Origin: Candidatus Methanomethylophilaceae archaeon
GTDB lineage: Archaea > Thermoplasmatota > Thermoplasmata > Methanomassiliicoccales > Methanomethylophilaceae
Reading direction: 5' to 3'
Assembly (NCBI GenBank): GCA_944320495.1
Contig: CALUHR010000001.1
Location: 1 to 64,000 of the forward strand
Length of the DNA stretch: 64,000 nucleotides
The notes beneath the pieces are model-generated. The model saw only the letters and a program-made list of their open reading frames with translations. It had not been told where the DNA came from and searched no databases. Below, piece by piece: positions 1 to 64,000 of the stretch. Made by a program: the position numbers and the translations under genes. The stretch's first letter is position 1, and the number at the start of each line of letters is the position of its first letter.

Positions 1-122
1 GGTTCTTCGCCGATCTGAGGGATGCCCTCGGTGTCGAAATCGATCTCGTATGTCAGGAATCCCTCCGTGATGACTTCAGCAGGGAGGTCCTCAGGGACAG
101 GAGGCTGCTCTATGAGGCGTGA
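1..122 (+). CDS. MNT-type nucleotidyltransferase antitoxin, C-terminal fragment (MntA-like)
   Basis: Only the last 40 or so codons are in the window; the 5' part lies upstream. The frame reads FFADLRDALGVEIDLV and ends RRLLYEA before TGA at 120-122. This resembles the C-terminal end of small MNT-family nucleotidyltransferases, where an acidic-hydrophobic-acidic strand (EIDLV) carries a conserved Asp. Family knowledge: MntA proteins AMPylate and neutralise the HepT ribonuclease encoded just downstream. The gene overlaps the likely HepT start (ATG at 112), the usual coupled arrangement. The assignment rests on this short tail plus the partner gene. Confidence 0.7.
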   Translation, partial: FFADLRDALGVEIDLVCQESLRDDFSREVLRDRRLLYEA

Positions 123-161
123 CATCGGAATCCTCCGTGACATCGTGAAGTACTGTGACAT

Positions 162-473
162 GTGAACGAGATCGTCGAGATGTTCGGCTCGGACGAGGAG
201 GACTTCTTGGACAACAAGGTGTACCAGACCTCCACCGCGTTCTCCATCCTGCAGATCGGAGAGCTCGTCAAGAGGCTCTCGCCGGAACTCAGGGATGAGT
301 TCGGCGAGGTGACCTGGAGCAAGATCGCCGGCATGCGCGACATGTTCGCGCACCAGTATCACAACGTGATCCCGGAACTGCAGTGGAAGACGATTACCGA
401 AAGGGTCCCTGCGCTTAGAGAGGCATGCCTGGAGATCATCGAGGTGCTCGAGTCCAGACATGAAGAAGACTGA
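162..473 (+). CDS. hepT: HepT-like (DUF86) toxin ribonuclease, probably frameshifted
   Basis: This 103-codon frame opens with GTG and carries RDMFAHQY, the RX4HXY signature of HepT/HEPN toxins, which cleave RNA and are held inactive by the MNT partner. The expected N-terminus is present but in another frame: ATG at 112 reads MRRDIGILRDIVKYCDM and then meets TGA at 163-165. Stepping back one base joins it to VNEIVEMFG, the normal continuation in this family. So either one base was lost (inactive gene or assembly error), a -1 frameshift operates, or translation restarts at the overlapping GTG. The natural gene span is 112-473. The RNase motif itself is intact. Confidence 0.7.
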   Translation: MNEIVEMFGSDEEDFLDNKVYQTSTAFSILQIGELVKRLSPELRDEFGEVTWSKIAGMRDMFAHQYHNVIPELQWKTITERVPALREACLEIIEVLESRHEED

Positions 474-474
474 T

Positions 475-954
475 TCATGCTATCGCCTCCGTTTCTCTTC
501 CAAATGCCTCCCTCTGTCTCCTGAGGAAGTATTCGTCTGGCTCCTCGAAGGGTCCGGCCATGACCAGGTCGTCGTCCATCGGGAGTCCGAGGTCGAGGGT
601 GCACAGGGTCAGCGGGCACATCCTGGAGAAGTCCACTATCGTCAGGTGCTCGTCTCTGAGCCTGGACTTGAACGATTGGAAGATGTTCCTGACGAGATCG
701 AAGTCCTCCGCGAAGACCACGACAGGATCGTCTCTGATGTATCTGATGTACGAGCCGGTGCAGTCGTGGTATCCGTCGAAGGTCCTGAGGATCCTGTGGC
801 ATTCCCTGCAGACGCGGATCTTGTACTGACGGTAGATTCCGAGGGTGCGGATGTTCCTCTTAGACACACCGCCCCAGTACCTGATCCTGAATTCCACCGC
901 GAGGGCTCTCATGGTCCACTGCTCCCAGTCGACCCCGGAGAGGTCCCCGACCAT
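475..954 (-). CDS. unknown 159-aa protein next to the Rep gene
   Basis: The frame starts with ATG at 954, 13 bases after the CGA that closes the Rep gene, and ends with TGA at 475, abutting the convergent hepT. I do not recognise the family. Visible features are a WEQWTMRALAVEF stretch near the start and a CRECHRILRTFDGYHDC cluster near residue 55 that could bind zinc. With the standard code this frame looks like the frameshifted C-terminus of Rep; with CGA as a stop it is a separate downstream gene. There is a purine-rich GGCAAGGGAAGG just before the ATG. No internal CGA was seen. It probably belongs to the same mobile element as Rep. Confidence 0.5.
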   Translation of the reverse strand: MVGDLSGVDWEQWTMRALAVEFRIRYWGGVSKRNIRTLGIYRQYKIRVCRECHRILRTFDGYHDCTGSYIRYIRDDPVVVFAEDFDLVRNIFQSFKSRLRDEHLTIVDFSRMCPLTLCTLDLGLPMDDDLVMAGPFEEPDEYFLRRQREAFGRETEAIA

Positions 955-967
955 CCTTCCCTTGCCT

Positions 968-1780
968 TCGCCCGTTCTCGTTGTAATCCTTCTCAGTGTA
1001 GGATGCACCTGGGGACTGGAGTCCGGGGACGAGCATGTCGAGGACCTTCAGGTCCCAGTCGATGTCGTCGGGGTCCTTCTCGGCCATGCCGAGGCCCATG
1101 TGCGTCGTGAGGTAGGCGGCGGTGTGCCTGATGCTCCTGATCCTCTCGCGGGCGTGGACCTTCTTGATGAGCCAACCGGGATTGGATTTCCTGAATGCTG
1201 TGGTGTCGATGCGGCCGTAGCAGAGGATGTGGAAGTGCGGGGAGAACTCCCACTCCGATTCTTTCTGACGCCAGGGATGGAATATCGTGACTCCGGCTGT
1301 GGCACCGAACGCGACCATGGAGTCGTCGACATGCCTGCAGAGGTCGTCGAACTCGGGCTTGGTCTGGCAGAGCCTCTTGATCAGTTTCTGCGGAGGTGAG
1401 ACCACCCAGTGGTCGATGTCACCCACGTGAATCCCTTTCTTCTCGCTGAGGACTATGTACGAAAGGAGCTGCTTCTCTATCTGGACGCCCCTCTTGAGAG
1501 CGGTGTCGTTCATGCACTTCGGACATCTGAGGCTCCAGCAATGCCTGCGCTTGCCCTTGCAGTGGTGCTCGGGACCGTCGGGACATGCGGAGTACACGAT
1601 GCCACCTGTAGGGGAGCGAATGAATCCGCATCCCTTCCTGTCGGGACGCGAGATGTCGGGGACCGGGCAGGGGTGACTCTCACAAAGGATTTCTCCGACA
1701 GATGGACGGTGAGTTCCAGTCTTTCGGCGAACGACACTCGACCCCTGTCCGTTTCTATGCAGGTCGGGGAGGCCTGACAT
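968..1780 (-). CDS. HUH-type rolling-circle replication initiator-like protein
   Basis: A 270-residue protein with a CPKC zinc-type motif near residue 90, a His-hydrophobic-His motif (HFHILCYG) near residue 185 and a YLTTHMG segment further on that matches the position of the catalytic Tyr in HUH endonucleases. Such proteins nick one strand to start rolling-circle replication of plasmids or viruses. ATG at 1780 is chosen because the zinc region starts well after it and sequence upstream looks non-coding. The first in-frame YGA is CGA at 968-970; the standard code would run on to 860 over the next gene. An isolated Rep beside a toxin-antitoxin pair suggests an integrated plasmid remnant or a small mobile element. 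Confidence 0.6.
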
Positions 1781-6061: not shown

Positions 6062-6985
6062 ATGCAGGGGATTCTCGAGGTGGAGGACGTCGTCAAGACG
6101 TTCCGGGGCCATGCCGCGGTGGACCATGCCTCCTTCTCCGTAGGGAAGGGCAGCTTCACCGCCCTGCTAGGGCCGAACGGATCGGGCAAGAGCACGACCC
6201 TCAAGATGTGCACCAACCTGTTGCAGCCCGATTCGGGCAGGATACTGATAGACGGGATCGATGTCTTCGAGGACACGGTGGCCGCGCTGTCGGGAGCCGG
6301 CTGCGTGATAGAGACCCCAGTGGTCTACCCGGATGTCAGTGGCAGGAGTTACCTGGAGCATCTGGGAAGGCTCTCGGGGATGTCCTCCGAGACCGCATCA
6401 TCGGAGGCCGAGCGCGTCCTGGGGATAGTGGGGATGTCCGATCGCTGTGACAGGAAGGTCGGATCCTACTCAAAGGGGATGCGGCAGAGGATCGTACTGG
6501 CCCAGTCTCTGATTGGCGATCCGTCGCTGATGATGATGGACGAGCCGACCTCTGGGCTGGACCCGCAGGGCAGCATGGAGTTCGGGGAGATCCTCAGACG
6601 TCTCAATCGCGAGGGCAAGACCATCCTGATGAGCTCGCACATGCTCCATGAGGTGGAGGGGCTGTGCGACAGCGTCGTGGTCATCGACCGCGGCAGGACG
6701 GTGGCCCAGGGCAGGATATCGGACATCACCAGGCTGTCCAGGATCACCGTCTCCGTGGTAGGCGAGGTGTCCGATGCCGCGCTGAGGTCTGTCTCCGAGA
6801 TGGAGGACGTCCTAGAGGCTTCCAAGATCGATGGGGGCCTGACGCTCAGGCTGGACGGAGGTGCCGACAGGCAGGCCGAACTGGTCAGGGACATGGTCTC
6901 CATGGGGCTTCGCGTGTACGCCGTAAGGAAGGAGGATCCGCTGGAGGAGGCGTTCATGCACATCACCGGAGGTGACGGCGAATGA
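6062..6985 (+). CDS. ABC transporter ATP-binding protein (ABC-2 exporter type)
   Basis: A 307-residue ATPase. Walker A is GPNGSGKST near residue 37, the signature YSKGMRQRI near residue 137, Walker B LMMMDEPTSGLDP near residue 157, and the switch His follows (SSHMLHE). The C-terminal 90 residues match the extension seen in CcmA/DrrA-like subunits. It powers the membrane subunit encoded next, whose ATG overlaps its TGA. The substrate is unknown; families of this type export drugs, peptides or lipids, or act on membrane processes. No in-frame CGA was found by eye. Confidence 0.9.
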   Translation: MQGILEVEDVVKTFRGHAAVDHASFSVGKGSFTALLGPNGSGKSTTLKMCTNLLQPDSGRILIDGIDVFEDTVAALSGAGCVIETPVVYPDVSGRSYLEHLGRLSGMSSETASSEAERVLGIVGMSDRCDRKVGSYSKGMRQRIVLAQSLIGDPSLMMMDEPTSGLDPQGSMEFGEILRRLNREGKTILMSSHMLHEVEGLCDSVVVIDRGRTVAQGRISDITRLSRITVSVVGEVSDAALRSVSEMEDVLEASKIDGGLTLRLDGGADRQAELVRDMVSMGLRVYAVRKEDPLEEAFMHITGGDGE

Positions 6986-7788
6986 ACGCCGTCGGATCCA
7001 TGAGGCAGGTCCTCGAGGTAACCCGTTTCGAGACGCTCAGGAAGGTTAAGAGCTGGAGACTTCTGTTCCCCTTGATATGCGCCGTCGCCGTATGTGCCCT
7101 GGCATTCGGCAACGGGAGCGGCGAGATGAGGGGCTATGCGGGCACGGAGTCCGCGTTGGCACTGCTCAGACCGTTCCTGGCATCCGCGCCCCTGATCGCG
7201 GCGATAGCCGCGACCGTGCTCTGCACGGAGACCCTCTCGGAGGAGTTCGAGAGGGGTTCCGGATACATCACGTTCACCAAGCCGGTCCGCAGGGAGACGG
7301 TCTTCGCTGGCAAGTTCCTATCGGGGTTCCTGGTGTCCCTGATCGTATTGGCAGTCTATTACGCCCTGACGTTCGCGATATGCGCCGCGTTGGCCGGCGA
7401 GGTGCCCGCAAGGGCGCTGGCGGCCGTCCCGCTGGCGGTGCTGTACCTGTTCGCGGTAACCGGGGTATGCATGCTCTTCAGCGCACTGGCACCCAAGGGC
7501 AGCATGGCGATGATGGCCGCCTTCCTGCTGATGGTGGTCCTGCAGATCTTCATGCAGAACGTGTCGTTCTCCACCGAGCCCTGGTACAGCCTGGGATACG
7601 AATGCGGGATCCTGGGCGACTATCCTCTTGGGAACCAGACCGAGTTCGATGTCGATGTGTTCGGCAACGCGAGGGCGGAAGACTATGTGCCAGACGTGAG
7701 CATCGCCTGCGTCGTCATGGCCGTGTACGCGCTCATCTCCACTGCGCTCGCCGTGACGGTGTTCAGGTACAGGAACATGAGATCCCGA
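6982..7788 (+). CDS. ABC-2 type transporter permease
   Basis: A 268-residue protein with about six hydrophobic segments (near residues 25-40, 65-82, 110-132, 145-165, 170-190 and 235-255), the layout of ABC-2 permeases. Near residue 90 it carries FERGSGYITFTKPVRRE, like the cytoplasmic loop of NosY-like permeases. The start overlaps the ATPase stop (ATGA). The end has two YGA codons in a row: CGA at 7786-7788 then TGA at 7789-7791. If CGA is not a stop, the protein has one more Arg. A hairpin terminator follows. Confidence 0.85.
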
Positions 7789-9142: not shown

Positions 9143-9781
9143 TCGCCGATCCCTGGATGCCAGCCTCCTCCCCGTCGAGTAGGCGTTCTCCAGGTCCTTC
9201 GGGAACTGCGTCCTCCTGACCTCGGCCTTGTGCTCCGCATCGAACCCTGCCGCCCTGTACTTCGAATAGTCGTCGAACTGCAGGGTGTCGCAGCAATGAT
9301 GGTGCTCCACCGTCCCTCCGAGCTTCATCAAAGGGAGCATGGTCCGCTCGTAGAGCTCGTCGTATCCGCGGTAGTCGGATGGGAGGTTCATCGTGAAGAA
9401 GAACGCGACGTCGGTGCGCTTGGGGTGTATTACCCGGGTCGCGTCGTCATAGGTCATCGTGACATATCCCAGACGCTCGAGGAAGTTCCTCATCATCCCG
9501 GTGACGTCACCGAAGTAGATCGGGGAGCCCAGCAGGAGGACGTCCGCATCGAGTGCCCCCTCGAGCACCGGTGTCAGACCGTCCCTGTGATAGCATCTGC
9601 AGTAGTCCGCGTTCCTCCTGCGACAGGCGAAGCAGCTGACGCAACCGGAGAAGTCCAGGTCCGCGAGATGGACCATCTCAGTATCCGCGCCCACGGATGC
9701 GGCGCCCTCGAGGGCCCTCTCCAGGAGCATATCGGTGTTCCAGCCCTTCCTCGGGCTTCCGTTGACGGCCATGACTTTCAT
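9143..9781 (-). CDS. NADPH-dependent FMN reductase / iron-sulfur flavoprotein-like protein 2
   Basis: A 212-residue flavodoxin-fold protein opening MKVMAVNGSPRKGWNTD, where SPRKGxNT is the FMN phosphate loop. CVSCFACRRRNADYCRC near residue 48 is the compact cysteine motif of iron-sulfur flavoproteins, and GSPIYFGDVTG near residue 88 is the second FMN loop. Its ATG lies nine bases after the CGA that ends flavoprotein 1. The first in-frame YGA is CGA at 9143-9145; in the standard code it would run to 9080 through a Ser/Pro-rich tail that looks non-coding. Confidence 0.8.
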
Positions 9782-9790
9782 AGCATCACA

Positions 9791-10333
9791 TCGGTGGCAG
9801 CTCTTCCCCATCTCGTATGCCTGCAGCATGAACGGAGTGCCAACCACGGTCCCCTTCTCGAAGACTCCGGTGGCCTCGACGGTCCCGCCTTCGACGGAAC
9901 CCTCCAGGCATTCCGCCAGGCCGCGCATGCAGTCGATGGCGCAGGAGGTGACATGGTCGTGGGTCTCGGCCCCGGCGGCGATGTAGTAGAACGTCTTGCC
10001 GCTGACGGCCTTCCAGCGGGCGTTGAACCTGTCGATGAGGGCCTTCAGCTGGGCGTCCACCGAGTAGAAGTACACCGGGCTGGCCAGCACGATTATGTCG
10101 GCGGCCTCCATCTTGGATATGATCTCGGGGACGTCGTCCCTGATGCAGCACTCTCCCCTGCCGTCCTTGCAGTGGTAGCAGGCGGTGCAGAAACCTATCC
10201 TCCTGTTCCTGAGGTTGATCTTCTCCACGTCATTGCCCGACTCAACTGCTCCGCGTACGAACTCGTCGCAGAGGAGGTCCGTGTTGCCTCCTTTGCGCGG
10301 GGACGCCGAAATCACAACTATCCTCTTGGACAT
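9791..10333 (-). CDS. NADPH-dependent FMN reductase / iron-sulfur flavoprotein-like protein 1
   Basis: A 180-residue flavodoxin-fold protein. It opens MSKRIVVISASPRKGGNTD (FMN phosphate loop), has CTACYHCKDGRGECCIRDD near residue 49 and ASPVYFYSVDAQLKALIDR near residue 84. GAGG precedes the ATG by about eight bases. The first in-frame YGA is CGA at 9791-9793, directly after SCH; the standard code fuses it to the next gene to give a 417-residue double protein. Two tandem separate genes fit the family's single-domain size better. Likely role: flavin-based two-electron transfer together with the rubredoxin and ferredoxin genes downstream. Confidence 0.8.
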
Positions 10334-10497
10334 GCCTGGTTCCTCTTGGTGTCCCGTATCGTCGGATGAGGGGATATCGGTTGCTGTGACTGCCGTCATG
10401 TCGCAGAATCTCGAACATACGCCTCGGTGATAGATGCGGGAGGATGCAAGGCGGATGGATATCCGCCTCATCCTGAGAAGGTGTGTTGGTGTTTGAT

Positions 10498-21186: not shown

Positions 21187-22227
21187 ATGCGCATCCTGGG
21201 CGAGGACCGTGGGTCCGGCAGCGTGAAGGTCCTCATCGAGACCGACGAGGACATCTGGCACCTCTACAACGTGATCGAGGTCGGGGATCTCGTGACCGCA
21301 TCCACCACACGCAGGGAGGAGAAGTCGGCCGACAAGATCCGTGCCGAGAGGGCGGAGAAGAAGAGGATGACCCTCGGGGTCCGCATGGAGAAGATCGAGT
21401 TCTCCGAGGAGGACCTCCGCCTCAAGCTGCTCGGCACCATCGAGACTGGCCCCCAGGACATCGGCCAGCACCACACGCTCATCCTGGAGACGGGCGATTC
21501 CCTGACGATCGCGAAGACGCACTGGAGGGAGACACAGCTGGAGCGTCTCCAGCGCGCCGTCTCGGATTCGAAGAAGCCGAGGATCGTGTTCGTGTCCCTC
21601 GACCAGGACGAGGCGACGATAGCCGTCCTCAGGCAGTTCGGCCTGAAGGAGGTCGTCACCATAAGGTCCGGGAGGTCCGGCAAGCAGTACGCGGAGAAGC
21701 CCTCCGCCGACGGCTACCACGCGGAGATAGCGGCGAAGCTGGCGCCGCTTATGGAGCCCAACATGCCGCTGGTGCTCCTCGGCCCCGGGTTCGAGAAGGA
21801 GACCCTCTCGGAGGACCTGAAGAAGGCGGATCCGTCCGCGTTCGGCAGGATGTACGTCTACCACACCGGTCAGTGCGGGATGGCGGGGATCAACGAGCTC
21901 CTCAAGGGGGGCATGGGCGCCGACGTCCTCAGGGACTCCGCGGTCGGAACGGAGATCGAGGCCGTGGAGAGGCTGATGGCCGAGATATCCAAACCCAACG
22001 GCCTGGGGACCTACGGGACCCAGGAGGTGATGGACGCCGCCATGGCCGGAGCGGTCGACACGCTGCTGGTGCTCGACTCCAAGGTCCGCGAGCAGGACAT
22101 GGACGACGTGGTCCGCGCCGTGGAGTCCCAGAAGGGCAGCGTCATCGTGGTCTCGGGGCAGCACGACGGCGGTCGCGCCCTCGCATCCCTGGGGGGCATG
22201 GGAGCCATCCTCAGGTACCGTCTCCGA
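21187..22227 (+). CDS. pelA: aPelota (Dom34) ribosome-rescue factor, ending in CGA
   Basis: A 346-residue protein. Residues 1-130 are the Sm-like pelota N-domain (MRILGEDRGSGSVKV, GDLVTASTTRREE); the central and C-terminal domains are eRF1-like, with RMYVYHTGQCGMAGINELL and the C-terminal GGMGAILRYRL. Pelota binds stalled ribosomes and, with a GTPase and ABCE1, splits them. The family normally ends a residue or two after ILRY-R. Here the codon at that place is CGA (22225-22227) and no standard stop follows; the standard code fuses pelota to the synthase gene and gives 772 residues. A TATA-like box lies between them, so two genes are far more likely. Confidence 0.9.
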
Positions 22228-23614: not shown

Positions 23615-23995
23615 ATGACCATCCTGAGGGTAAGCGAACTTATCGAATGCAAGCACATGACGAGCATACTCGCCTGTCTGTACATGCGCGGATCCATGGG
23701 CAAGAGCGAGATCTACGACACGATCTCCAACAGCCCCAACATGGCACTGAAGCTCCGCATCCTCTCCGATGAGGGGCTGGTGGAGTCGAACCAGGTGGGG
23801 AGGCGCACCGAGTACAGTCTGACCGAGAAGGGGAGCTCCGTCGCGGAGAAGCTCTGCGGGCTGGAGGAGCTCGTCTACGGGAGGGTCGGGGACCTGAACC
23901 ACCTGGAGGAGGGGACAATCCATCTGGACGGGGACGTCCCCGACGAGACCCGCGACTGGTTCGAGGACCGCAGGAGGGGCTGTTGTCCCCTGCGA
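23615..23995 (+). CDS. winged-helix transcriptional regulator, ending in CGA
   Basis: A 126-residue protein. Residues about 15-75 form a winged helix-turn-helix: ILACLYMRGSMGKSEIYDTI, ALKLRILSDEGLVESNQVG, then a wing RRTEYSLTEKG. The tail is acidic. Such small regulators bind operators as dimers. An AT-rich TTAATATCTAATCAG stretch at about 23555-23570 is the likely promoter. The first in-frame YGA is CGA at 23993-23995, directly abutting the TGA of the convergent paaK gene at 23996. In the standard code the frame runs on to 24955, 960 bases antisense to paaK, which is implausible. Confidence 0.75.
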
Positions 23996-26807: not shown

Positions 26808-28106
26808 TCAAATCACCCTTGTGTCGACGACCCTCTTGGCCTTGCCCTCGAACCTCGGCAGCTCGCCGGGAGCCTTGAGTTCCACCTTGGCATAGATGTT
26901 CAGGTACTTCTTCAGCTCGGCCTCGATCTTCGCCCTGAGCTGGGCCATCTGGGCCATGTTGTCGCTGAAGGCCTCCGGACGGATCTCGACCTGGACGGTC
27001 ATCTCGTCCAGGGCACCCTCTCTGGAGACGTAGATCATGTACTGCTGACCGACCTCGGGGATGCGCATGAGCGTGTACTCGATCTGGGACGGGAACACGT
27101 TGATTCCGCGGACGATGAGCATGTCGTCGGACCTTCCGGAGATCCTCCCGATGCGGGGGGACGTGCGTCCGCAGGCGCACTCGTCCTCCATGAGGTAGGA
27201 GATGTCGCGGATCCTGTAGCGGATCATGGGCATGGCCTCCTTCTGGAGCATGGTGACGACCATCTCTCCCTTGTCGCCGTTCTCGACGGGTTCCCCGGAG
27301 TCGGGGTCGACGATCTCGACGAGCATGATGTCGCCGGCGACGTGGATCCCGTTCCTCTCGGTGCACTCGGTGAACATGGGTCCGGCCTGCTCGGAGGTGC
27401 CGTAGATGTCGTAGGCCTCGATGCCCATCTCGTCATGGATGAACTTGCGCATGCTCTCGGACCAGGGCTCGGCTCCGAGCAGTCCCTTGCGGAGCTTGGT
27501 GTCGTTCTTGATGCTGACGCCCATGGAGTTGGCGACGTCGTTGAGGTGGATCAGGTAGGACGGGGTGCACGCGATGGCGGTGACGCCGAGGTCCTGGATG
27601 AGCTCTACCTGCCTCTGGGTGTTACCGGTGCTGGAGGGCAGGACGGTCGCCCCGACCTTCTCGCCGCCGTAGTGGGCGCCGAGACCGCCGGTGAACAGGC
27701 CGTAGCCGTAGGAGACCTGGAGGACGTCCCCAGGTCCGATGCCGACGGAGGTCATGGAGCGGGCGAGGGCCTCGGTCCAGTAGTCCAGGTCGTTCTGGGT
27801 GTATCCGACCAGCGTGGGCTTCCCGGTGGTCCCTGAGGAGACGTGGTACCTCACGATCTCGTTCTTCGGGACGGTGAAGAGCTTGTCCGGGTAGTTGTCG
27901 CGCAGGTCCTGCTTGTACATGAACGGGAGCTTGCGGATGTCCGCCAGACAGGTGATGTCGTCGGGGTGGACCTTGTTCTCGACCATGCGGTCGTGGTAGA
28001 ACTTGTTGAAGGAATAGAGGTTGTATACCAGCTGTTTGAGCTCGCGGTACTGAAGCTTCTTGAGCTCCTCCACGGGCATGCATTCGATTCTGGGGTTCCA
28101 GTACAT
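26808..28106 (-). CDS. paaK: phenylacetate-CoA ligase-like AMP-forming ligase 1
   Basis: A 432-residue paralogue of the ligase at 23996-25297. It carries YHVSSGTTGKPTLVGYTQ near residue 87, YDIYGTSEQAGPMF near 235 and ECACGRTSPRIGRISGRSDDML near 305. First gene of the run paaK-ACT-SelB-like. Role as for the second copy: activation of aryl or related carboxylates as CoA esters. The two copies differ clearly in sequence, so substrates may differ. Its TGA touches the ACT gene start. Confidence 0.9.
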   Translation of the reverse strand: MYWNPRIECMPVEELKKLQYRELKQLVYNLYSFNKFYHDRMVENKVHPDDITCLADIRKLPFMYKQDLRDNYPDKLFTVPKNEIVRYHVSSGTTGKPTLVGYTQNDLDYWTEALARSMTSVGIGPGDVLQVSYGYGLFTGGLGAHYGGEKVGATVLPSSTGNTQRQVELIQDLGVTAIACTPSYLIHLNDVANSMGVSIKNDTKLRKGLLGAEPWSESMRKFIHDEMGIEAYDIYGTSEQAGPMFTECTERNGIHVAGDIMLVEIVDPDSGEPVENGDKGEMVVTMLQKEAMPMIRYRIRDISYLMEDECACGRTSPRIGRISGRSDDMLIVRGINVFPSQIEYTLMRIPEVGQQYMIYVSREGALDEMTVQVEIRPEAFSDNMAQMAQLRAKIEAELKKYLNIYAKVELKAPGELPRFEGKAKRVVDTRVI

Positions 28107-28178
28107 GTTCGCCCTCTGGGATTATACGGGCTCGATGCGCAGACACTACTAAAAAGATACTATCGCGATGGAGGGTGC

Positions 28179-28757
28179 ATGGGACAGCAGGACGTCTGGG
28201 ACTCGTTCTACCGCTCCAACGGCCGGGCGTGGAGGGGCAACTGCAGGATGCCGGACCCGCTGGGAGGCGGGGGCGACGCCCTCGACCTGGGGTGCGGGAG
28301 CGGCAAGAGCGTGTCCACGCTGATCGACATGGGCTACAGGGCGGTCGGCCTCGACTTCTCGGATGAGGCCGTGTCCATGTGCAGGGAGAGGTTCGGCGGG
28401 GCGGCGGAGTTCGTCTCCGGCGATGTGCTGGCACTGCCGTTCGATGACGGTTCCTTCGACTATGTGACGGCTGTCCATGTGCTCGAGCACCTGACCGACG
28501 AGGCTCTCCGTACGGCTGCGGGGGAGATCGCGAGGGTCCTGCGCCCGGGCGGATACGCCTTCGTCAGGGACTTCGCCCCGGGGGACCTGAGATCGGAATC
28601 CAGGGAGGGGTCCGACATCAGGTACATTCACCGCACCCCCGAGGAGCTGGTCTCAGCGTTCGGGGACGTGGAGGTCGTGTCGGCTGGTGTCGTGGAGGAG
28701 AAGACGCGGTTCGGGGCGGTCCGCCGCCGTTCCGAGGTCCTCCTGAGACGCAGGCGA
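28179..28757 (+). CDS. SAM-dependent methyltransferase, ending in CGA
   Basis: A 192-residue class I methyltransferase: ALDLGCGSGKSV near residue 30 (motif I), GLDFSDEAVSMC near 53, SGDVLALPFDDGSFDYVTAVHVLEHL near 78-103 and VLRPGGYAFV near 123. It is of the small UbiE/BioC-like type; the substrate is unknown. The first in-frame YGA is CGA at 28755-28757, after LLRRR. The standard code would fuse it through a TATA-like stretch to the zinc-ribbon membrane protein. ATG at 28168 (out of frame) is rejected. Confidence 0.8.
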
Positions 28758-28808: not shown

Positions 28809-29165
28809 ATGAAGTGCCCCCGTTGTGGTCACGAGAATCCGGATGAGGTCCTCTTCTGCGAGGAGTGCGACTGGAGGGTCGACGTCCCTTACATACCGGA
28901 GAAGAAGCGCAATCCAGTGCATTTCGCAGGCGCGACGATCGTCCTGGGACTCATCGCCGCGGTGTGCGCGTTCATGAGCGGAACCGAGCTCGTGGCACTG
29001 GCCGTCGGAGCCATCGCCCTCATCCTGGGAGGATACTCCATGGGCGTCGCCAGACTAGTCGAGACCGACAAGACCCAGCTGTGCCTCGCCATCTCAGGTG
29101 TCGGTATGATCCTCGGGGTCCTCGGATTCCTCATCGGCTTCGCGTCCTTCGTGGGAGCGATGTGA
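28809..29165 (+). CDS. zinc-ribbon membrane protein
   Basis: A 118-residue protein. MKCPRCGHENPDEVLFCEEC at the N-terminus is a zinc ribbon (CPRC...CEEC). Three hydrophobic segments follow (about residues 40-58, 60-78 and 92-115). I know of no specific function; such zinc-ribbon small membrane proteins are frequent in this kind of archaeon. TATATG at 28781-28786 lies about 25 bases before the ATG, so the mRNA may be leaderless. Its TGA overlaps the next ATG (GTGATGG). Confidence 0.65.
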   Translation: MKCPRCGHENPDEVLFCEECDWRVDVPYIPEKKRNPVHFAGATIVLGLIAAVCAFMSGTELVALAVGAIALILGGYSMGVARLVETDKTQLCLAISGVGMILGVLGFLIGFASFVGAM

Positions 29166-37043: not shown

Positions 37044-38424
37044 TCCGAGGAGGCTGACCAACGAGGGCCCGACGGTCGTCGGGCTGATGACCTCCGTCAT
37101 AGAGTCGGGGGGATCCCTGGATACGGCGGCCAGGGCGGTGTCCGAGGAGGGGCCGAGACTCTCCGCTGAGCTGTTCTCCGGAGCCGTGAGGCTCACGGAC
37201 ACCAAGGGCTCCGTCGGAATCTCTCAGGCGCTATCCGAATCGCTTTCCGTTCTGCCGGAGTCCGCTTCGGGCTACAGGCAGGCGATGCTGCTGTGCATCT
37301 CCGCATCCGAGGCGGCCGAACCGCAGGAGAGGCTCAGGATCCTCAAGGAGGCTTCCGATGTGGCCCTGGACGCCGTGCGCATCATTGGGGAGAAGTACGC
37401 CGCAGGCCTCTCCACGCCGTGCATGGCGGTCTTCGGCCTGGGGATAATGGCACCTATGATCCTGATGTCCATACTGCCGATCATGGGCCTCGGCGGGATG
37501 TTCGCTGAGATGCCGGTGGACAGCGGCACGATGCTCATGGCGACTCTGGTCCTGATCCCGGCGGCGATTCTCTGCCTGGCGTACTGGCTGCGCCAATCGA
37601 ACCCGTTCCTGGAGCGTTCGGGGAGTCCCCGCGACGCGGTGTGCGCACTACCACTCCTCACAGCAATCCCGCTCTATCTGGCGATGATGTCCCTGCGCAC
37701 GGGGGCCGTGGAGGCCCTGATTCTCTCGATCGCCCCGTCCGCGGTGGCCTGTCTGATAATGATGTTCGACGGCCGCAGGGCGGACCAGGCCAGGGCCAGG
37801 TCCGAGAAGGGGCTGAGGGACTGCGTCTTCGAGCTTGGCAACTCCCTGCTGGGAGGAGACAACTTCGAGACCGTGGCCGTGGAGGCTGTGTCGTCCAGGG
37901 TCGAGTGCAGGGATGTGGGCACTGCGCTCAGCAGGGAACTCGACCTGTGCAGGGGAGATGTCCGCGGTGCGATCAGGAGATCGGTGGGACCGGTATCGCC
38001 CGAGGTCTCCAGGACCCTCTGCGACATCCAGCACTGCTCCGAGAAGGACACCGAGGACGCGGGGAGGTTGGCCATCGCCGTGGGGAGGCAGTACCAGAAC
38101 ACGTCCAACATCAGGAACGAGCTGGGCCTGAAGCTCAAGGGGATGACCGACATGATGGTGGGCACGGCGATGCTGTTCGCCCCGATGGTCCTCGGGATGA
38201 GCACATCGATGCTCGGGCCGCTAAGCGAGATATCCGGATACGCCGGCCTTGAGGGCACGGAGGTGGTGCTGGCCGTGTATCTCGTAGAGCTCTGCGCGAT
38301 CATCGCCGTGCTCACGTCGAGCCTGGGGGACGGCGATGGCATCAGGGGGATGGTGTGGAGGTTCTGTCTCTCGTGTCCGATCGCCCTGGTCGTGTTCTGG
38401 TTCTGCATCGGGGTCCAGCTCCGA
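37036..38424 (+). CDS. TadC/ArlJ-like type II secretion membrane platform protein, ending in CGA
   Basis: A 462-residue protein with hydrophobic segments near residues 138-160, 165-188, 205-245, 378-398, 410-430 and 440-460, and two similar cytosolic regions (residues 10-110 and 250-370) with the T2SSF-like pattern of a platform protein (FETVAVEAVSSR). It anchors the ATPase and pilins in the membrane. Start ATG at 37036 overlaps the ATPase end. The first in-frame YGA is CGA at 38422-38424 after GVQL; TAA follows two codons later. No internal CGA. Confidence 0.85.
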
Positions 38425-38456
38425 AGGTGTTAACCCAGGGGAGGGGATGCGAGGGT

Positions 38457-38960
38457 ATGGACGGCAGGACCAGACTGTTGGTGGCGGGATGCATCGCATC
38501 TGGGGTGGTACTCGCCCTGATGTTCCTGTCGCCCCTCCTATCCCCCTACGGTCTCTTCAGGGGGCTTGACGGGTCCCCCGGATTCATAGACGGAGGCTGG
38601 GAGGGCGGAGGCCCGGCCAGTCTGGCGTATCTGCTGGGGGATCTCGTCTGTCATCAGGAGGAGGCCAGGAGCCTGATCCTGAACGGCTCCCAGATGCCCG
38701 TCTGCGCGAGGGACACCGGGATCCTCATAGGTCTCACGATCGGTTTCGCCGCATGTCTGCCCATCGGCAACAGGCTGGCGGACAGGCGCATCGCGGCCCT
38801 GGGCGTGGTGCTCGTAGCGGTCATGGCGGTCGAGTGGCTTGTGGAGACGACGGGCTTCGATTCGCAGGCCTGCAGGCTCATCTCTGGGGTTTCTGCCGGG
38901 GTCGGTGCGAGCCTATTTCTGGCTTGGATGCTATATAGGCAGGATGACCGGGGAGAGCGA
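38457..38960 (+). CDS. DUF2085-like membrane protein, ending in CGA
   Basis: A 167-residue protein. Hydrophobic segments at about 10-30, 90-108, 112-135 and 145-160. DLVCHQEEARS near residue 62 and MPVCARDTGILIG near 80 match the CHQ...CxR pattern of DUF2085 membrane proteins. Function unknown. GAGGG lies five bases before the ATG. The first in-frame YGA is CGA at 38958-38960, overlapping the next gene's ATG at 38944 by 17 bases. In the standard code it would continue to 39422. Confidence 0.7.
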
Positions 38961-39666
38961 CGCGGGTATCGACTGGGAGTACGGCAGGGCCGCCTCCGAT
39001 GCGGTGGAGTGGCTCCTGAAGGAGGGATTCCTGAAAGAGGACGACTGCTCCATGAACGTCGCCTGCGGTCGCGGCGGATTCGCCGTTCCGATGAGCAGGG
39101 CGGTCCGTGTGCTGGTCTGCATGGACAGCAGCAGGGACTCCCTCGACATAACCGGTCAGCGCTGCGCCGGGGGATGTCGCACCGAGCTCTTTCAGCAGGA
39201 CTGGCGCTCCTACGTCCCCGCCAGGGGGAGGTACGACTCATGTGTCATGTCGCCGTCGTACCTGTGCTTCAACATGGAGGCCATACGCAGGATCGAGACA
39301 GTCTCCAAAAGGGGATGCGCCGTGGTCTTCCCGCTAGAGTTCGACTACCGCAGGCTCCGGAAGGGATTCCTCCAGAGTCTCGGCGTCGATGCGGGCTTCC
39401 TGTCGATGCCGGAGTTCCCTGACCCGCGCCCGTTCGCCGTCTGGCTGTCGGAGAAGGGCAGGAACATGGAGACGCGTCGCTTCCAGTCCACAGTGGAGTG
39501 TCCCGACGAGGTCTTCAGGACGGCGATCGTCCGCGATTCCGTCCTTCACGGGGCCGACGAGGCCGCCGCAGCCTCCATGGCCGACAGATACGTCTCGAAG
39601 GTCAGCAGGGGCGGTGCGGTCAAGTACAAGTTCTCCGCCAACGTCGTTGCCTGGAACATGGTGCGA
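38944..39666 (+). CDS. methyltransferase-like protein of unknown specificity, ending in CGA
   Basis: A 240-residue protein. MNVACGRGGFAVPMSRAVRV near residue 40 resembles a class I methyltransferase motif I (acidic, G-x-G), CMDSSRDSLDI follows at the motif II position, and YDSCVMSPSYLCFNMEAIRRI near 100 fits motif IV. Substrate unknown. It overlaps the DUF2085 gene and closes the Tad-like run. The first in-frame YGA is CGA at 39664-39666 after VAWNMV; TAA comes seven codons later. It could also be a corrinoid or lipid-modifying enzyme of this group. Confidence 0.55.
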
Positions 39667-51415: not shown

Positions 51416-52042
51416 TCGGTGCCTGAGCTTGTCCTTCCACGACCTCTTCAGATTGCCGTCCTTGTCGAACTTGGTCCTCATCAGCTTGTCGTAGTTGCTC
51501 CGGATCTTCGGGTCGGCCGGCTTGATCTCCATCAGCAGCTCCAGCTCCGCCTTCGCCTTCCGATAGTCCTTGAGATCGTTCAGGAGCAGGACCGCGTAGT
51601 TCTGATGGTAGACGTAGTTGGACGGATCCGTGGCGATAGCCTTCTCGTAGAATTCGCCCGCCCTCCTGAAGTCAGTTATCTGGTTGCGGAGGAATCTGGC
51701 ATACTCGTTGTACAGGTCGCCAGAGGGACAGAGTTCCACAAGTCTTTTGAAGAGCTCGTCGGTCTCCTTGTTGTTCCTCTTGTCGCGGGCGAGGACCGAG
51801 ACCTTCGCCTTCATGGCATCGGTGTTGACGGGGTCCAGATCCAGGATGACGTCCAGCTGCATCAGCCCGTAGCTGACGTCCTGGAGGTCCCTGATGGCGA
51901 TCTCCGCGAGGACCAGCCTGGGCTTGGTGTTGTGCGGGTCTGTGGCCAGATACGCCTCCAGCGTGTTAGCGGCTCCCGTGGGGTTGCCGCTGGACGCCTG
52001 GTTCCTCGCCTTGGTGATGGCCTCGAATGCCGGATCGCTCAT
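51416..52042 (-). CDS. TPR-like repeat protein, ending in CGA
   Basis: A 208-residue helical protein with tandem 34-residue-type repeats: NPTGAANTLEAYLATDPHN near 20, LMQLDVILDLDPVNTDAM near 65, EFYEKAIATDPSNYVYHQNYA near 130 and ELELLMEIKPADPKI near 165 show the A/G-Y-A-P spacing of TPRs. It probably mediates protein contacts. The first in-frame YGA is CGA at 51416-51418 after KLRH; TAA follows 14 codons later at 51362. The convergent gap to rubrerythrin is AT-rich. Confidence 0.65.
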
Positions 52043-52774: not shown

Positions 52775-53614
52775 GTGGATCGCAGTTCCATCGATCGTTC
52801 GGATTCATCCGGTAGGAAGGAGCCGGATGAGGGCAGGAGTTTCGATGTCGATGCATATCTGGCTCGCATCGGGATGCCCCGTCCCTCCGAGCCGGATCTC
52901 GGATACGCCGACTCCCTGGTCCTCTCGCATCAGTGCTCGGTCCCATTCGAGAATCTGGACTGCTACGACCTTGGGAAGGTCCCGGACACATCGATGGGAG
53001 CCGTGTTCGCGAAGGTCGTCCGCGATCATCGCGGCGGGTACTGCTTCGAGATCAACAAGCTGTTCTCCCGTCTGCTCTCGGAATGCGGATACAGGGCGTG
53101 GCCGATATCCTGCAGCGTCCTTCACGGCAGCGACCATGCGGAGATGATGCTTCATCGCGCCACGCTGGTCGAGATCGACGGCTCTGTCTACTACTGCGAT
53201 GTCGGCATCGGAGGTCCGCAGCCTGCCGGGCTTGTCCCCCTGGACGGATCCAGGACCCTTCTAGGAGAGCACTATTCCGTCGAGAGGGACGATGGGCCCT
53301 GGTGCTATCTGGTCCGCCATCGCGACGACGGCACATGTGCCAGATTGGTCGCGTTCCTCGACTTCCCCGTGCCGGATGGGTTCTTCGTTCCATTCAACCA
53401 CTACTGCTCCACCAGCGCGGATTCCAAGTTCACCAGGAGGCGCATCGTCAACATGCGCACGCATCGCGGCAGCCTGTCCCTCGTGGGCGGGACACTGACC
53501 GAGCGTTGCGACGGGAGGACCACCGTGACGGAATACGATCGCTGCGAGGATCTGGCAATGATGCTCCGCGAGAAGTTCGGGATAGAGGTCCAGCCGTCCG
53601 ATCTGAGGGTGCGA
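52775..53614 (+). CDS. nat: arylamine N-acetyltransferase family protein, ending in CGA
   Basis: A 279-residue enzyme. After a short Ser/Asp-rich leader, FDVDAYLARIGMPRPSEPDL and SVPFENLDCYDLGKV begin the NAT domain; RGGYCFEINKLF near residue 88 holds the catalytic Cys, HRATLVEIDGSVYYCDVGIGG near 128-148 in parts the His/Asp region. It moves an acetyl group from acetyl-CoA to arylamines or hydrazines. GTG at 52775 is the start. The first in-frame YGA is CGA at 53612-53614, 11 bases before the stop of the convergent membrane protein; the standard code would overlap it by over 100 bases. Confidence 0.85.
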
Positions 53615-57713: not shown

Positions 57714-58187
57714 ATGGAAGTCGGCGACAGGTTCCCGGAGTTCAGGCTCAGGGACGAGAACGGCGAGGAGCTGGACAGCTCGTCGCTGGAGGGCATAAGG
57801 TACGTGATCTACTTCTATCCGAAGGACAACACGCCCGGATGCACCAAGGAGGCCGAGGAGTTCAGCGCCAGCATCGGGCAGTTCCTGATGCGCAACATCC
57901 CTGTGATAGGTGTGAGCAAGGACTCCGTCGAATCCCATCGGAAGTTCATCGACAAGCACCAGCTCAGGGTGAAGCTCCTCAGCGATCCCGACCACGAGCT
58001 GATGGAGAAGGTCGGCGCCTGGGGCACCAAGGTCTCCTACGGCAAGGAGACCGTCGGCACCATCAGGTCGACCTTCCTGGTCGGCAGGGACGGGACCGTC
58101 GAGGCCGTCTGGCGCAACGTCAAGGTCAACGGGCATGTGGACAAGGTCCTCGCATGCGCCGTGTCCTGTTCGAAATCGAAGAGCTGA
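57714..58187 (+). CDS. bcp: peroxiredoxin, Bcp/PrxQ type
   Basis: A 157-residue thiol peroxidase. YPKDNTPGCTKEAEEF near residue 38 holds the peroxidatic Cys; the resolving Cys of PrxQ (five residues later) is absent, so it may be a 1-Cys form. FLVGRDGTVEAVWRNVKVNG is the family C-terminal part. It starts 11 bases after pheT and ends with TGA at 58185-58187. The convergent etfA ends in CGA at 58176-58178, so the two overlap by 12 bases. Confidence 0.92.
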   Translation: MEVGDRFPEFRLRDENGEELDSSSLEGIRYVIYFYPKDNTPGCTKEAEEFSASIGQFLMRNIPVIGVSKDSVESHRKFIDKHQLRVKLLSDPDHELMEKVGAWGTKVSYGKETVGTIRSTFLVGRDGTVEAVWRNVKVNGHVDKVLACAVSCSKSKS

Positions 58188-59237
58188 ATCCAGGCTCCTC
58201 AGGACCTCTCCGGCATCCGCCAGGAGGCTGAGGTCCGCGAAACCGTGTATGGGGGCGTCGGGATCGCTGTTGACGGCGATGATCCTGCGCGCCCCCGTCA
58301 TGCCAACCCTGTGCTGTACGGCGCCGGATATCCCGAACGCGATGTAGAGGTCGGGGGACACGATCCTCCCGGACATGCCGACCTGACGGGAGCGGGGCAT
58401 CCATCCCCTCTCGACCAGGGCGCGGGAGCAGCACACGGCCCCTCCCATCTTCTTCGCCACGGATTCCGCCACATCGATCAGGCCCCTGTCGCGTATGCCG
58501 TCGCCGAGCGCGATGAGCACACGGGCGTCCTCGATCCCGTGATCGGCATCGATCCGCTCGTCCGATACGATGTCCTTCACGGAATCGCCCGGGTACTGCC
58601 AGTAGATCGCCGTGCCCTTCCTGTCCTCCCTCTCCGGCATCCCGAAGGCGCCCGGACGGACCGTGGCGACCTGCGGATACCCCACATACCTGATGTCGGC
58701 CATCAGGGAGCCTCCGAAGGCGGGTCTCGTCGCGACAAGGTCGCGTCCGTCGGCACCGAGGCCGGTGCAGTCCGCGGTGATCCCCGAGCCGATGGATGCG
58801 GCCACACGAGGCGCCAGCTCCCTTCCGAAGGGGGTGGCCGAGAACAGGACGATCGCAGGTTCGATCCTCGCGATGACGGCGGAGATGCATTCCGCATACG
58901 CCTCGGGCATGTAGGTCTCGAGTCTGGCGTCCCTGACGTGGTAGATCGTGTCCACGCCGTATCCGAACGCATCGGGATACATTCCCTTGACCTCCGGTCC
59001 GCCGAACACCACTCCGAAGACGCGGCCGACACCGAGCGAGCGGGCCGCGCCGATGAGCTCCGCGGAGTGGTCCGCGAGCCTGACGCCCTCCCCGGAGCCC
59101 GTAGTCTCCAGATGGACCAGGATGCCGTCAGCCACGGACTGGTTGATGTCGTAGCGCTTGAGCATGCCGGGCGGGAGCCTGTCGGGGTCGTCCCCTCCGC
59201 CGCACGTGGAGCATGAGCCCCCTTCGCATCCGCTCAT
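58176..59237 (-). CDS. etfA: electron transfer flavoprotein alpha subunit with N-terminal Cys motif, ending in CGA
   Basis: A 353-residue protein. The C-terminal FAD domain is clear: WMPRSRQVGMSGRIVSPDLY near 248 and GISGAVQHRVGMTGARRIIAVN near 275 are EtfA signatures, then DPDAPIHGFADLSLLADAGEV. The N-terminus carries CEGGSCSTCGGG (Cys 4, 9, 12), an Fe-S-like motif not in ordinary EtfA. The first in-frame YGA is CGA at 58176-58178 after SLDSAL; the standard code would extend it antisense through all of bcp to 57672. ATGA overlap with etfB. Confidence 0.85.
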
Positions 59238-62506: not shown

Positions 62507-62706
62507 ATCGTGATCACTACGCAGACAACGACGACGGCCACGAGCGCGACCCAGATCAGCATGAGCTTCCTGAGCTTCCCCTTGACCTCGCCCCTGGCCG
62601 TTTCCTCGCACTCGGGGGAGCAGAAGTTCCCCTTGCCGACGAACGCCTTCCCGCACTTCTCGCAGTGGCGGTGCTGCGGTATCCTCTCTACTGTTGGCTC
62701 TGTCAT
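62503..62706 (-). CDS. small zinc-ribbon membrane protein (DUF2116-like)
   Basis: A 67-residue protein. HCEKCGKAFVGKGNFCSPEC is a zinc ribbon; residues about 48-66 are a single membrane helix ending VVITI. This is the DUF2116 pattern of small archaeal membrane proteins of unknown role. It overlaps trmY upstream and coaD downstream by ATGA. Confidence 0.75.
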   Translation of the reverse strand: MTEPTVERIPQHRHCEKCGKAFVGKGNFCSPECEETARGEVKGKLRKLMLIWVALVAVVVVCVVITI

Positions 62707-63299
62707 GATGATGCCTCTCTGCGGTCCATCTCGTTGTGCACGACCACTATGCAGTGGTTGGCGTGCAGGCTCTTGGGACCCAGGTTGATCCTGTCAGGAT
62801 CGTGTGATTCGAAAATGCGCTCCTCTTCCTCGGTGGGGTCCCTGTCGTCGCCCATGACGAACACTGGGTTCTCGGGGAACTCGTATCCCCTGCAGTCGGT
62901 CCCGTCCTCCCTGAGGTAGATTAGCTTGCTGTCGCGGGTCAGCTCTTCGAGGACCTGCTCCAGGGACCTGCGCACGACGCTGACGCCGGGCGAGGCCAGG
63001 ACCTCGCGGTCCTCGAGAGGCTTCATGAGGGCGTTGCGGATCAGCGATGCGGTGCTCCTCTCGTCCGGGTTGAGGTATCTGACGGTCTCCCCTCTGAATA
63101 TGACCGTCTTGGGGGCATCGTCGCCCCCTTCCAGGACCAGGTAGACCTCCACATCCCTGCGGATGCCGTGACTCAGGAACAGGGATGCGTTGACGCATCT
63201 CACCAGGATGTCGAGCCTACCGGCCCCTCCCGCTATGTCGTCCAGCTTGAAGTCCCCGGTTGTGGAGGCACGATGGCCGATGACGACGAATCTCTTCAT
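62703..63299 (-). CDS. trmY: tRNA pseudouridine-54 N1-methyltransferase
   Basis: A 198-residue SPOUT methyltransferase. MKRFVVIGHRASTTGDFKLD at the start, GGAGRLDILVRCVNASLFLS near 25-44, VFVMGDDRDPTEEEE near 147 (the knot loop that binds SAM) and SLHANHCIVVVHNEMDRR at the end match archaeal TrmY (DUF358). It methylates pseudouridine 54 of the T-arm. Between SRP54 and the zinc-ribbon gene. Ends with TGA. Confidence 0.93.
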   Translation of the reverse strand: MKRFVVIGHRASTTGDFKLDDIAGGAGRLDILVRCVNASLFLSHGIRRDVEVYLVLEGGDDAPKTVIFRGETVRYLNPDERSTASLIRNALMKPLEDREVLASPGVSVVRRSLEQVLEELTRDSKLIYLREDGTDCRGYEFPENPVFVMGDDRDPTEEEERIFESHDPDRINLGPKSLHANHCIVVVHNEMDRREASS

Positions 63300-63303
63300 C
63301 GGA

Positions 63304-64000
63304 TCACTGGAGGTCCTTGATGCTGTCGAGATCGATTCCGCCCATCTGCTTCATCATCATCTTGCGCATCTTGCGGTCCTTGCCGAACCTCTCCATCGTG
63401 TTCTTGGTGGTGTTGTATTGCTTGAGAAGCTCGCGCACGTCGTGGACGGAGACGCCTGCGCCGGCGGCGATCCTCTCCACGCGCTTCGATTTGATGATCT
63501 CGGGGTTCTCCTTTTCCTGGGGGGTCATGGAGTCCATGATCACGCGGAAGACCTCGAGCTTCTTCTGGGAGGCCTCGTAGTCGATCTTGTCCTCGTATCC
63601 GCTCATCCCTGGGAGCATGCTCATGAGCTTCTGGAGGGTCCCCATCTTGCCGACGGCCTTCATCTGATAGTACATGTCGTTCAGATTGAACTTGCCCTTG
63701 GCGAGGCTCTTGGAGATCTGCTCGATCATCTCGTCGTCGCCCATCTCCTCGGTGGCGGTAGCGATGAGCGTGCCTATGTCGCCCATGCCGAGCAGGCGGC
63801 CGATGAACTTCTTGGCGTCGAAGGGCTCGAGGTCGCGTATGTGTTCCCCCACTCCGAGGAACACGATCCTCGCCTTGGTCTTGGACATGGCGGAGATGGC
63901 GCCACCTCCCTTGGCGGTTCCGTCCATCTTCGTCAGGATGACCCCCGTGACGCCGACGGCGTTGTGGAAGGCCTCAGCCTGGGGTCCGGCCTGCTGACCC
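63304..64000 (-). CDS. srp54: signal recognition particle 54 kDa protein (C-terminal part)
   Basis: Only the C-terminal 231 residues are in the window; the gene starts beyond 64000. TGVILTKMDGTAKGGGAIS is G4 and the end of the GTPase domain; FLGVGEHIRDLEPFDAKKFIG closes it. The M domain follows, with MKAVGKMGTLQKLMSMLPGM and the RNA-binding SKRVERIAAGAGVSVHDVRELL. SRP54 binds signal peptides and 7S RNA. Ends DSIKDLQ with TGA, three bases before the trmY ATG. Confidence 0.95.
   Translation of the reverse strand, partial: GQQAGPQAEAFHNAVGVTGVILTKMDGTAKGGGAISAMSKTKARIVFLGVGEHIRDLEPFDAKKFIGRLLGMGDIGTLIATATEEMGDDEMIEQISKSLAKGKFNLNDMYYQMKAVGKMGTLQKLMSMLPGMSGYEDKIDYEASQKKLEVFRVIMDSMTPQEKENPEIIKSKRVERIAAGAGVSVHDVRELLKQYNTTKNTMERFGKDRKMRKMMMKQMGGIDLDSIKDLQ

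Follow-up and report, generated by a model that had tools for sequence, protein, structure and literature searches.

Codon changes in which a stop codon acquires a sense meaning are familiar. The described systems that are closest to the one considered here run in the opposite direction and are found in organelles. The accessible part of a 2025 study on plastids of peDinoflagellates, where the UYA codons UUA and UCA serve as stops, calls this the first sense-to-stop change outside mitochondria (PMC12574857), and the accessible part of a study on UCA and UCG sense-to-stop changes in algal mitochondria names codon disappearance as their main drive (PMC6821328). Of the arginine (Arg) codons CGN, both CGA and CGG have come to specify tryptophan (Trp) in Absconditabacteria and CGG specifies glutamine or Trp in Firmicutes, as stated in the accessible part of the Codetta study (PMC8629427). 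In the present work, the codon CGA, which nearly all other life reads as Arg, was examined in a window consisting of bases 1-64,000 of contig C1 (85,696 bases), which is part of the assembly of an archaeon of the family Methanomethylophilaceae (here G000; 1.77 Mb, 14 contigs, 90.6% complete), and for which an initial annotation had noted that CGA appears to act as a stop codon. The named records matched by the pelota protein of this genome carry the designations Methanomassiliicoccales, Methanomethylophilaceae, Methanoplasma, Thermoplasmata archaeon and similar.

As far as the accessible parts of these articles go, CGA in G000 resembles the organelle cases in that the codon is confined to ends defined by homologues and a pre-existing release factor is credited, but those cases involve bacterial-type RF1/RF2, whereas here the change would concern the genome of a cell, an archaeon in which a single release factor aRF1 was found, a guanine plus cytosine (GC) content of ~62%, and the codon CGA (PMC12574857; PMC6821328). 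With the cases described in the accessible part of the Codetta study it shares that a CGN codon for Arg changes its meaning once rare and that the transfer RNA (tRNA) tRNA-Arg(UCG) is pivotal, although those changes are from sense to sense and occur in low-GC genomes (PMC8629427). Since Codetta, according to the accessible part of PMC9825746, is blind to sense-to-stop changes, that screen would have missed a CGA stop. A literature search of titles and openings of abstracts, with subscription papers and preprints mostly outside its coverage, yielded no report of CGA as a stop, and the word aRF1 is absent from the accessible part of a review of recoding in archaea (PMC8211752).

The evidence bearing on the role of CGA comes from a sample of G000 that comprised nine contigs and 852,644 bases (48% of the genome). 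Among 777 genes called in G000, 551 end in TGA, 190 in CGA, 26 in TAA and 10 in TAG; CGA ends are present on 9 of the 9 contigs sampled, where they account for 14-33% of the genes of each. In a boundary test, every codon in every frame was considered and the 40 codons before and 40 after it were scored as coding or noncoding by a codon-usage model, a codon being classed as an end if it was preceded by coding and followed by noncoding sequence, and as interior if both sides were coding. In the sampled bases the ratio of ends to interior occurrences was 227:3 for CGA, 534:32 for TGA, 362:3497 for CGC and 816:5610 for AGG, and a model trained blind to CGA gave 197:5 for this codon. One of the three interior-looking CGAs is in the gene for aRF1 and the other two look like gene junctions. 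Seven control codons that were treated like CGA gave 163:261 (CGG), 13:14 (TTA), 30:176 (CTA), 162:506 (AGA), 27:63 (CAA), 83:430 (ACA) and 69:250 (CCA), and in outgroup loci the ratio for CGA itself was 14:41. The pattern of CGA at gene ends exceeds chance, and the control codons are without it.

The ends of genes were also compared between genomes, a gene being scored as co-terminating when its end lay within 12 residues of that of its best match of at least 50% identity among the sampled stretches, where most CGA-ended genes had no match. Of the CGA-ended genes of G000, 16 of 18 co-terminate with a partner in the genome G014 and all 16 partners end in TGA or TAA; 19 of 19 do so with G042 (18 partners ending in TGA or TAA), and 14 of 17 with G043, an isolate genome (SUTA01) referred to below as SIG8, whose partners end in TGA or TAA seven times and in CGA seven times. 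For SIG8 the corresponding fractions were 14/14 against G014 and 19/19 against G042, and for G014 they were 5/6 against G000 and 2/3 against G042. As judged from these comparisons, CGA stands at ends where homologues stop in G000 and SIG8, for which the evidence is thin in G042.

Within conserved genes the codon has nearly disappeared. Codons aligned inside proteins of relatives were counted (29,320-58,695 per genome in the four genomes sampled) and each remaining CGA was then sorted by frame. At Arg positions, the number of in-frame interior CGAs compared with other Arg codons was 1 vs 2,420 in G000 (58,695 aligned codons), 2 vs 1,955 in G014, 2 vs 1,495 in G042, and 0 vs 1,209 in SIG8. The remaining CGAs in aligned regions were antisense, in another frame or outside called genes (13 antisense and 10 other frame in G000; 18, 5 and 1 outside called genes in G014; 4 and 2 in SIG8; 8 antisense in G042). 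The reference set used for this count was rebuilt, as a count with reference frames of both strands was swamped by antisense matches; a codon count on greedy longest open frames had likewise been dropped, since antisense frames were mixed in. In the outgroup loci, CGA is an ordinary Arg codon: among the genes called there, it makes up 227 of 4,157 codons for Arg. In the four genomes sampled, the codon is gone from the conserved interior, with the exceptions of aRF1 and the ribosomal protein gene eL18. The initial annotation had regarded CGA at conserved internal Arg positions as evidence against its claim; this does occur, but in aligned sequence only in these two genes. Six interior-looking CGAs in the boundary test of SIG8 resemble gene junctions by eye, followed for example by proB-like and GINS-like starts, and none is in-frame in aligned conserved genes. 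In G042, one CGA with coding signal on both sides (L220:3749) has no homologue among the sampled stretches and could be a third interior CGA or mark the junction between two genes.

Given that roughly one called gene in four ends at CGA and that the codon hardly occurs within genes, CGA very probably functions as a stop, and for G000 we assign this a very high likelihood. The claim of the initial annotation is therefore upheld by the boundary test, the gene calls, co-termination, the depletion in aligned genes and the control codons. The alternative that the standard code applies, with CGA as a rare Arg codon and the apparent ends due to real gene fusions, T-to-C assembly errors or contamination, could draw on the rarity of CGA in many genomes, on the errors that metagenome assemblies carry, on the presence of tRNA-Arg(UCG), and on the fact that forced gene calling ends outgroup genes at CGA too. 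However, the signal recurs in the separately deposited CASFYI01 (G008) and SUTA01 and, more weakly, in the single-contig G014; it is seen on every contig sampled together with matching tRNA lesions, and seven other codons treated alike behave differently. We consider this alternative extremely improbable.

Our proposal is that CGA serves as a stop codon which, by prediction, the ordinary aRF1 recognises while competing with a weakened tRNA-Arg(UCG), a reading to which, from the genome comparisons, we give a probability of roughly 0.86. The initial annotation had suggested loss of this tRNA as one route to a CGA stop and had counted an ordinary tRNA-Arg(UCG) as evidence to the contrary. The loss holds for SIG8 but is wrong for G000, which has the gene (L040:18317-18390), albeit with a change in its anticodon arm. 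U33 is nearly universal in tRNAs. Among 43 distinct intron-free tRNAs of G000, all 43 have U33 and positions 31 and 39 pair in 42, the exception being tRNA-Arg(UCG), where A lies opposite A. This tRNA was confirmed in 27 of 31 genomes of the genus, of which 19 show the 31-39 mismatch and 8 have C33 in place of U33, whereas all nine outgroup copies keep both U33 and the 31-39 pair and none has either lesion. In a tree based upon aRF1 and pelota, which contained 24 of the 27 tRNA-bearing genomes, the two lesions correspond to two clades with support of 1.00 (C33) and 0.98 (mismatch), and SIG8 and G016 fall inside the mismatch clade. Both lesions, we infer, weaken decoding of CGA, and the cognate tRNA would then be either lost or disabled in this genus; slower decoding would let aRF1 compete at CGA and hydrolyse the peptidyl-tRNA there. 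C33 is an unusual feature in a tRNA still required to decode one or two codons (L279, L315-L318, L322, L336, L337).

In G000, aRF1 is the sole class I release factor found (of two PF03463 matches, the other is pelota). Acquisition of a bacterial-type release factor from elsewhere was considered and rejected, as a search for PF00472 in four genomes found none. The initial annotation had proposed an aRF1 that reads YGA; this is still the likeliest mechanism, but the sequence offers no substitution that would obviously account for the reading of CGA, and the motifs pointed out in that annotation, NIKS and YxCxxxF, are unaltered. With NIKS, the E55 equivalent and YxCxxxF, which we take to be the recognition motifs, unchanged, aRF1 may always have had some activity on CGA, the change being driven from the tRNA side. 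Competition of aRF1 against a weakened tRNA is the best-supported mechanism. At residue 28 of aRF1, in the GTS-like loop, a Gly that is conserved elsewhere is replaced (G28S) in G000 and G008 only (L052/L116, L115).

The base that follows CGA is also relevant to this competition. In G000, T follows 107 of the 190 terminal CGAs (56%), compared with 23% of all CGAs (p 7e-23) and 29% of terminal TGAs (p 2e-11), and part of this skew is due to starts that overlap the stop (CGATG 19% vs TGATG 7%). The same preference, relative to all CGAs, was observed in G014 (11/16, p 1e-4) and SIG8 (32/75, p 0.002), and the figure for G042 was 5/8 (p 0.12). A weaker skew would be expected in SIG8 if T favoured aRF1 over the tRNA, and it is weaker there (G000 vs SIG8, p = 0.056), though this difference is not firm. 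At the interior CGAs, the next base is C (aRF1) or G (eL18). A sequence context at the +4 position could also be a feature of C-to-U editing of terminal CGA in the messenger RNA (mRNA), the real stop then being UGA; CGA and UGA differ only in C/U, and terminal CGA often occurs where relatives have TGA. However, editing alone leaves the loss of interior CGA, the changes in the tRNA-Arg(UCG) arm in two clades and the loss of this tRNA in SIG8 without explanation, and editing of every CGA would also strike aRF1 and eL18. Editing, which was the other route suggested by the initial annotation, is not needed to explain the CGA ends, and we regard it as very unlikely. The +4 preference would also fit competition at a slow codon where, with tRNA-Arg(UCG) altered or absent, ribosomes merely pause and are rescued, termination by aRF1 not being involved. 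Against such stalling, 75 of 194 genes called in SIG8 are CGA-ended, those for aRF1 and pelota included; rescue at so many would be costly, and CGA ends coincide with the ends of relatives like true stops. Archaeal Pelota is not known to release peptides. We therefore view stalling as a highly improbable explanation, and termination by aRF1 is retained.

The aRF1 gene itself carries an in-frame CGA at codon 78, through which the frame is open to the normal end. This codon is CGA in 26 of 27 aRF1 genes of the genus, the exception being SIG8, and in 1 of 30 outgroup genes, where it is otherwise CGT, CGC, AGG, AGA or CGG; the simplest account is a gain of this CGA at the root of the genus, with retention in 26 of the 27. 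No other CGA is present in the aligned part of the 26 genus genes (two of them incomplete), whereas 27 of 30 outgroup aRF1 genes contain some CGA. As the product of the gene is the factor that would read CGA, feedback is the simplest use of this codon. Excess aRF1 would end its own synthesis at codon 78, and scarce aRF1 would permit read-through by the weak tRNA and thus synthesis of the full-length factor. The gene for bacterial release factor 2 (prfB) is autoregulated by means of an in-frame UGA and a +1 frameshift. The aRF1 gene is like prfB in that the codon presumed to be read by its product occurs early in the gene, in frame and conserved, but it differs in that the frame is open and no +1 frameshift is involved, that escape would be by tRNA read-through, and that the factor is aRF1. 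It is not a frameshift gene of the prfB type, though it may work like one.

Codon 78 may, on the other hand, be a passive relic of a site that is hard to change, with CGA a stop elsewhere and no autoregulation. Consistent with this, other constraints can hold a CGA in place, as codon 30 of eL18 shows, and synonymous conservation near codon 78 is not unusual, and Arg codons 50, 186 and 189 of aRF1 are equally invariant. What speaks against a relic is the difference at codon 78 between the outgroups and the genus, where it is the sole CGA of these genes, and its location in the gene of the very factor that would read it. From this distribution we consider a relic rather unlikely and feedback through codon 78 likely. 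Synonymous conservation was also used to search for an RNA element near the interior CGAs of aRF1 and eL18, and none was found by this means.

In SIG8 the change appears to have gone further. The gene hypE adjoins tRNA-Arg(UCG) in 32 of 36 loci of the genus and outgroups. In SIG8 the order of hypE, a gene of 165 residues (orf165) and apt is intact and the tRNA gene is gone from the gap; in a search with a covariance model (150 candidates scored per genome) the second-best match in SIG8 reached 53.7 bits, compared with 69-99 for confirmed copies. SIG8 is one genome, 87% complete, and the loss of the tRNA rests on the intact neighbourhood, beyond mere absence. Codon 78 of its aRF1 is CGC and codon 30 of its eL18 is CGT, and its aRF1 gene is itself CGA-ended. 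With both internal CGAs changed and the tRNA absent, SIG8 has lost the tRNA along with the last sites known to require it. The share of CGA-ended genes noted above for SIG8 is the highest of the four genomes sampled. SIG8 would represent the end point of the process, in which both internal CGAs are now other Arg codons and CGA is a plain stop.

In other members of the genus, CGA-ended genes are less numerous (16 of 326 called genes in G014 and 8 of 338 in G042). In the 6-21 kb that surround pelota, CGA ends account for 6 of 14 genes in G008, 9 of 21 in SIG8, 3 of 14 in G001, 2 of 10 in G006, 1 of 12 in G041 and 1 of 8 in G010. The boundary test gave 21:2 in G014, the interior two being aRF1 and eL18, and this test together with co-termination with G000 carries the case for CGA as a stop there. 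In G042 the ratio was 7:3 and CGA is rare everywhere; of its eight CGA ends, one belongs to the fragment of aRF1 that precedes its interior CGA, three have a homologue with CGA within 3 codons, one (L217) has a homologue of 42% identity with TGA 6 codons off, and three are without a homologue among the sampled stretches. Support for CGA as a stop is strong for the CGA-rich species and thin for the other basal clade. In our view, the genus as a whole avoids CGA, and some of its species use it heavily as a stop.

Several observations weigh against the proposed reading. No CGA end was found in 10 of 16 pelota loci of the genus (G021, G015, G016, G020, G023, G009, G012, G013, G019, G018), and in eight outgroup loci, where CGA is a sense codon, 10 of 75 genes likewise end at this codon if the gene caller is made to stop at it, so that the low counts in G014 and G042 carry little weight on their own. 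Only one CGA end of G042 has a homologue whose standard stop lies close to it (L222, TAG, 2 codons off). In G014, a standard stop follows within 10 codons of the terminal CGA in 67% of cases, compared with 28% after TGA, and CGA there may be an imperfect stop with a backup. No substitution in aRF1 tracks the use of CGA, and the nearly genus-fixed residues D17, A76, Q164, V250, I270 and H338 lie, by alignment, outside NIKS, the E55 equivalent and YxCxxxF (SIG8 has A17). Anticodon stems with one unpaired position are not in themselves rare, as 3 of 9 outgroup tRNA-Arg(UCG) and most listed tRNA-Arg(GCG) pair at 4 of 5 positions, the unpaired one not being 31-39. tRNA-Arg(UCG) was also not found in G013, G016 and G017, but hypE is absent there or its neighbourhood is rearranged, which leaves SIG8 as the single clear loss. 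In genomes that have tRNA-Arg(UCG) and, in two conserved genes, an in-frame CGA for a conserved Arg, the codon is not exclusively a stop. Finally, codon 30 of eL18 is CGA in 28 of 28 outgroups and hence no trait of the genus.

Codon 30 of eL18, which was read separately for G000 (L286) as its gene lies outside the sampled stretches, is CGA in 18 of 22 genomes of the genus and CGT in G001, G044, G045 and SIG8. A role of this codon as a second regulatory stop in the genus was rejected, since all the outgroups share it; the CGA is instead old, otherwise constrained and inherited by the genus, and no new device. Conservation throughout the order extends over codons 28-31 of eL18 and includes the nucleotides ATC TGG CGA GA around codon 30 (CGA in 46 of 50 genomes; L175:13850, L281-L302, L345-L372), although other Arg codons would do. 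The site is probably under some overlapping constraint at the level of the DNA or mRNA. The inherited CGA in eL18 was probably, next to codon 78 of aRF1, a second reason to keep the tRNA, and it may be one reason why tRNA-Arg(UCG) could not be dropped; G001, G044 and G045 keep the tRNA without it.

Within the window, all 18 triplets listed by the initial annotation as gene ends are CGA on the strand indicated (Table 1). When genes were called again with CGA as a stop, 17 genes of the window end at CGA, every one at a listed site; the caller missed the site at 38958-38960, where the gene has a DUF2085 domain that extends to residue 187 of 201. That these genes run on in the standard code was confirmed, but the range of 50-960 bases given for this was too narrow at both ends, the next stop lying 1-425 codons on. 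At the sites 7786, 38422 and 39664, a standard stop follows 1, 3 and 7 codons on, and each of these proves little by itself. Read up to CGA, 14 of the 18 genes have Pfam matches, all of which finish at or before the CGA (e.g. eRF1_3 to 346 of 346 in pelota, Acetyltransf_2 to 273 of 279 and ETF_alpha to 313 of 353).

Table 1. Genes of the 64,000-base window that end at CGA, with the distance to the next standard stop and the ends of related genes (offsets in codons; percentages are identities).
Gene	Terminal CGA	Strand	Next standard stop (codons on)	Ends of relatives
968-1597, no Pfam match	968-970	-	36	G042 gene (54%) also CGA, 4 codons further on
6982-7788, ABC-2 transporter	7786-7788	+	1 (TGA is the very next codon; weak evidence alone)	
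9143-9781, FMN reductase-like	9143-9145	-	21	
9791-10399, FMN reductase-like, directly upstream of paralogue	9791-9793	-	237	
21187-22227, pelota (...LRYRL, then CGA)	22225-22227	+	425 (standard code fuses next gene)	within few codons TGA, TAA or TAG; G008 and SIG8 CGA
23615-23995, HxlR-like regulator	23993-23995	+	320	G008 copy CGA
27843-28757, methyltransferase	28755-28757	+	136	G008 copy CGA; TGA (L085, +2; L101, +21); TAA (L203/L095, +1; L092, -1; L186, +9)
29676-30461, alpha/beta hydrolase	29676-29678	-	16	G008 copy CGA
29081-29686, CxxCxxCC domain	29684-29686	+	27	SIG8 orthologue (75%) TAA, +2; G008 copy CGA
31766-32218, no Pfam match	31766-31768	-	208	G008 copy CGA
32209-32616, no Pfam match	32209-32211	-	18	no relative among sampled stretches
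35286-37043, type II/IV secretion ATPase (TadA-like)	37041-37043	+	42	SIG8 gene (55%) TGA, -3
37036-38424, no Pfam match (TadC-like in the initial annotation)	38422-38424	+	3	SIG8 gene (51%) CGA at same place
38355-38960, DUF2085	38958-38960	+	154	
38944-39666, methyltransferase-like	39664-39666	+	7	
51416-52042, TPR repeat	51416-51418	-	18	no relative among sampled stretches
52775-53614, N-acetyltransferase-like (Acetyltransf_2)	53612-53614	+	38	
58176-59237, electron transfer flavoprotein alpha	58176-58178	-	168	SIG8 gene (59%) CGA, -2

The two FMN reductase-like genes at 9143-10399 are tandem paralogues, which the standard code reads as one protein of 497 residues. The order Methanomassiliicoccales is known for pyrrolysine, which may explain why TAG ends merely 10 of the 777 genes called in G000.

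On the present comparisons, we consider it on balance probable that this genus is in the middle of a codon change, in which aRF1 competes with a crippled tRNA at CGA, best when the codon is followed by U, aRF1 limits its own synthesis, and SIG8 has completed the process. CGA in this genus, which is related to gut methane producers, would then be the first sense-to-stop change in the genome of a cell, the others being organellar according to the accessible part of the plastid study (PMC12574857). If this is true, a cell with well over a thousand genes shows that a large genome can pass through an ambiguous stage, and the genus seems to hold successive stages of it, from few CGA stops with an altered tRNA, through many with an altered tRNA, to many with no tRNA. 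For the genomes themselves, it means that the standard code reads many genes as fused or run on. A further question is by what means aRF1 tolerates C as the first base of the codon, and the system makes a change in the meaning of a codon directly testable.

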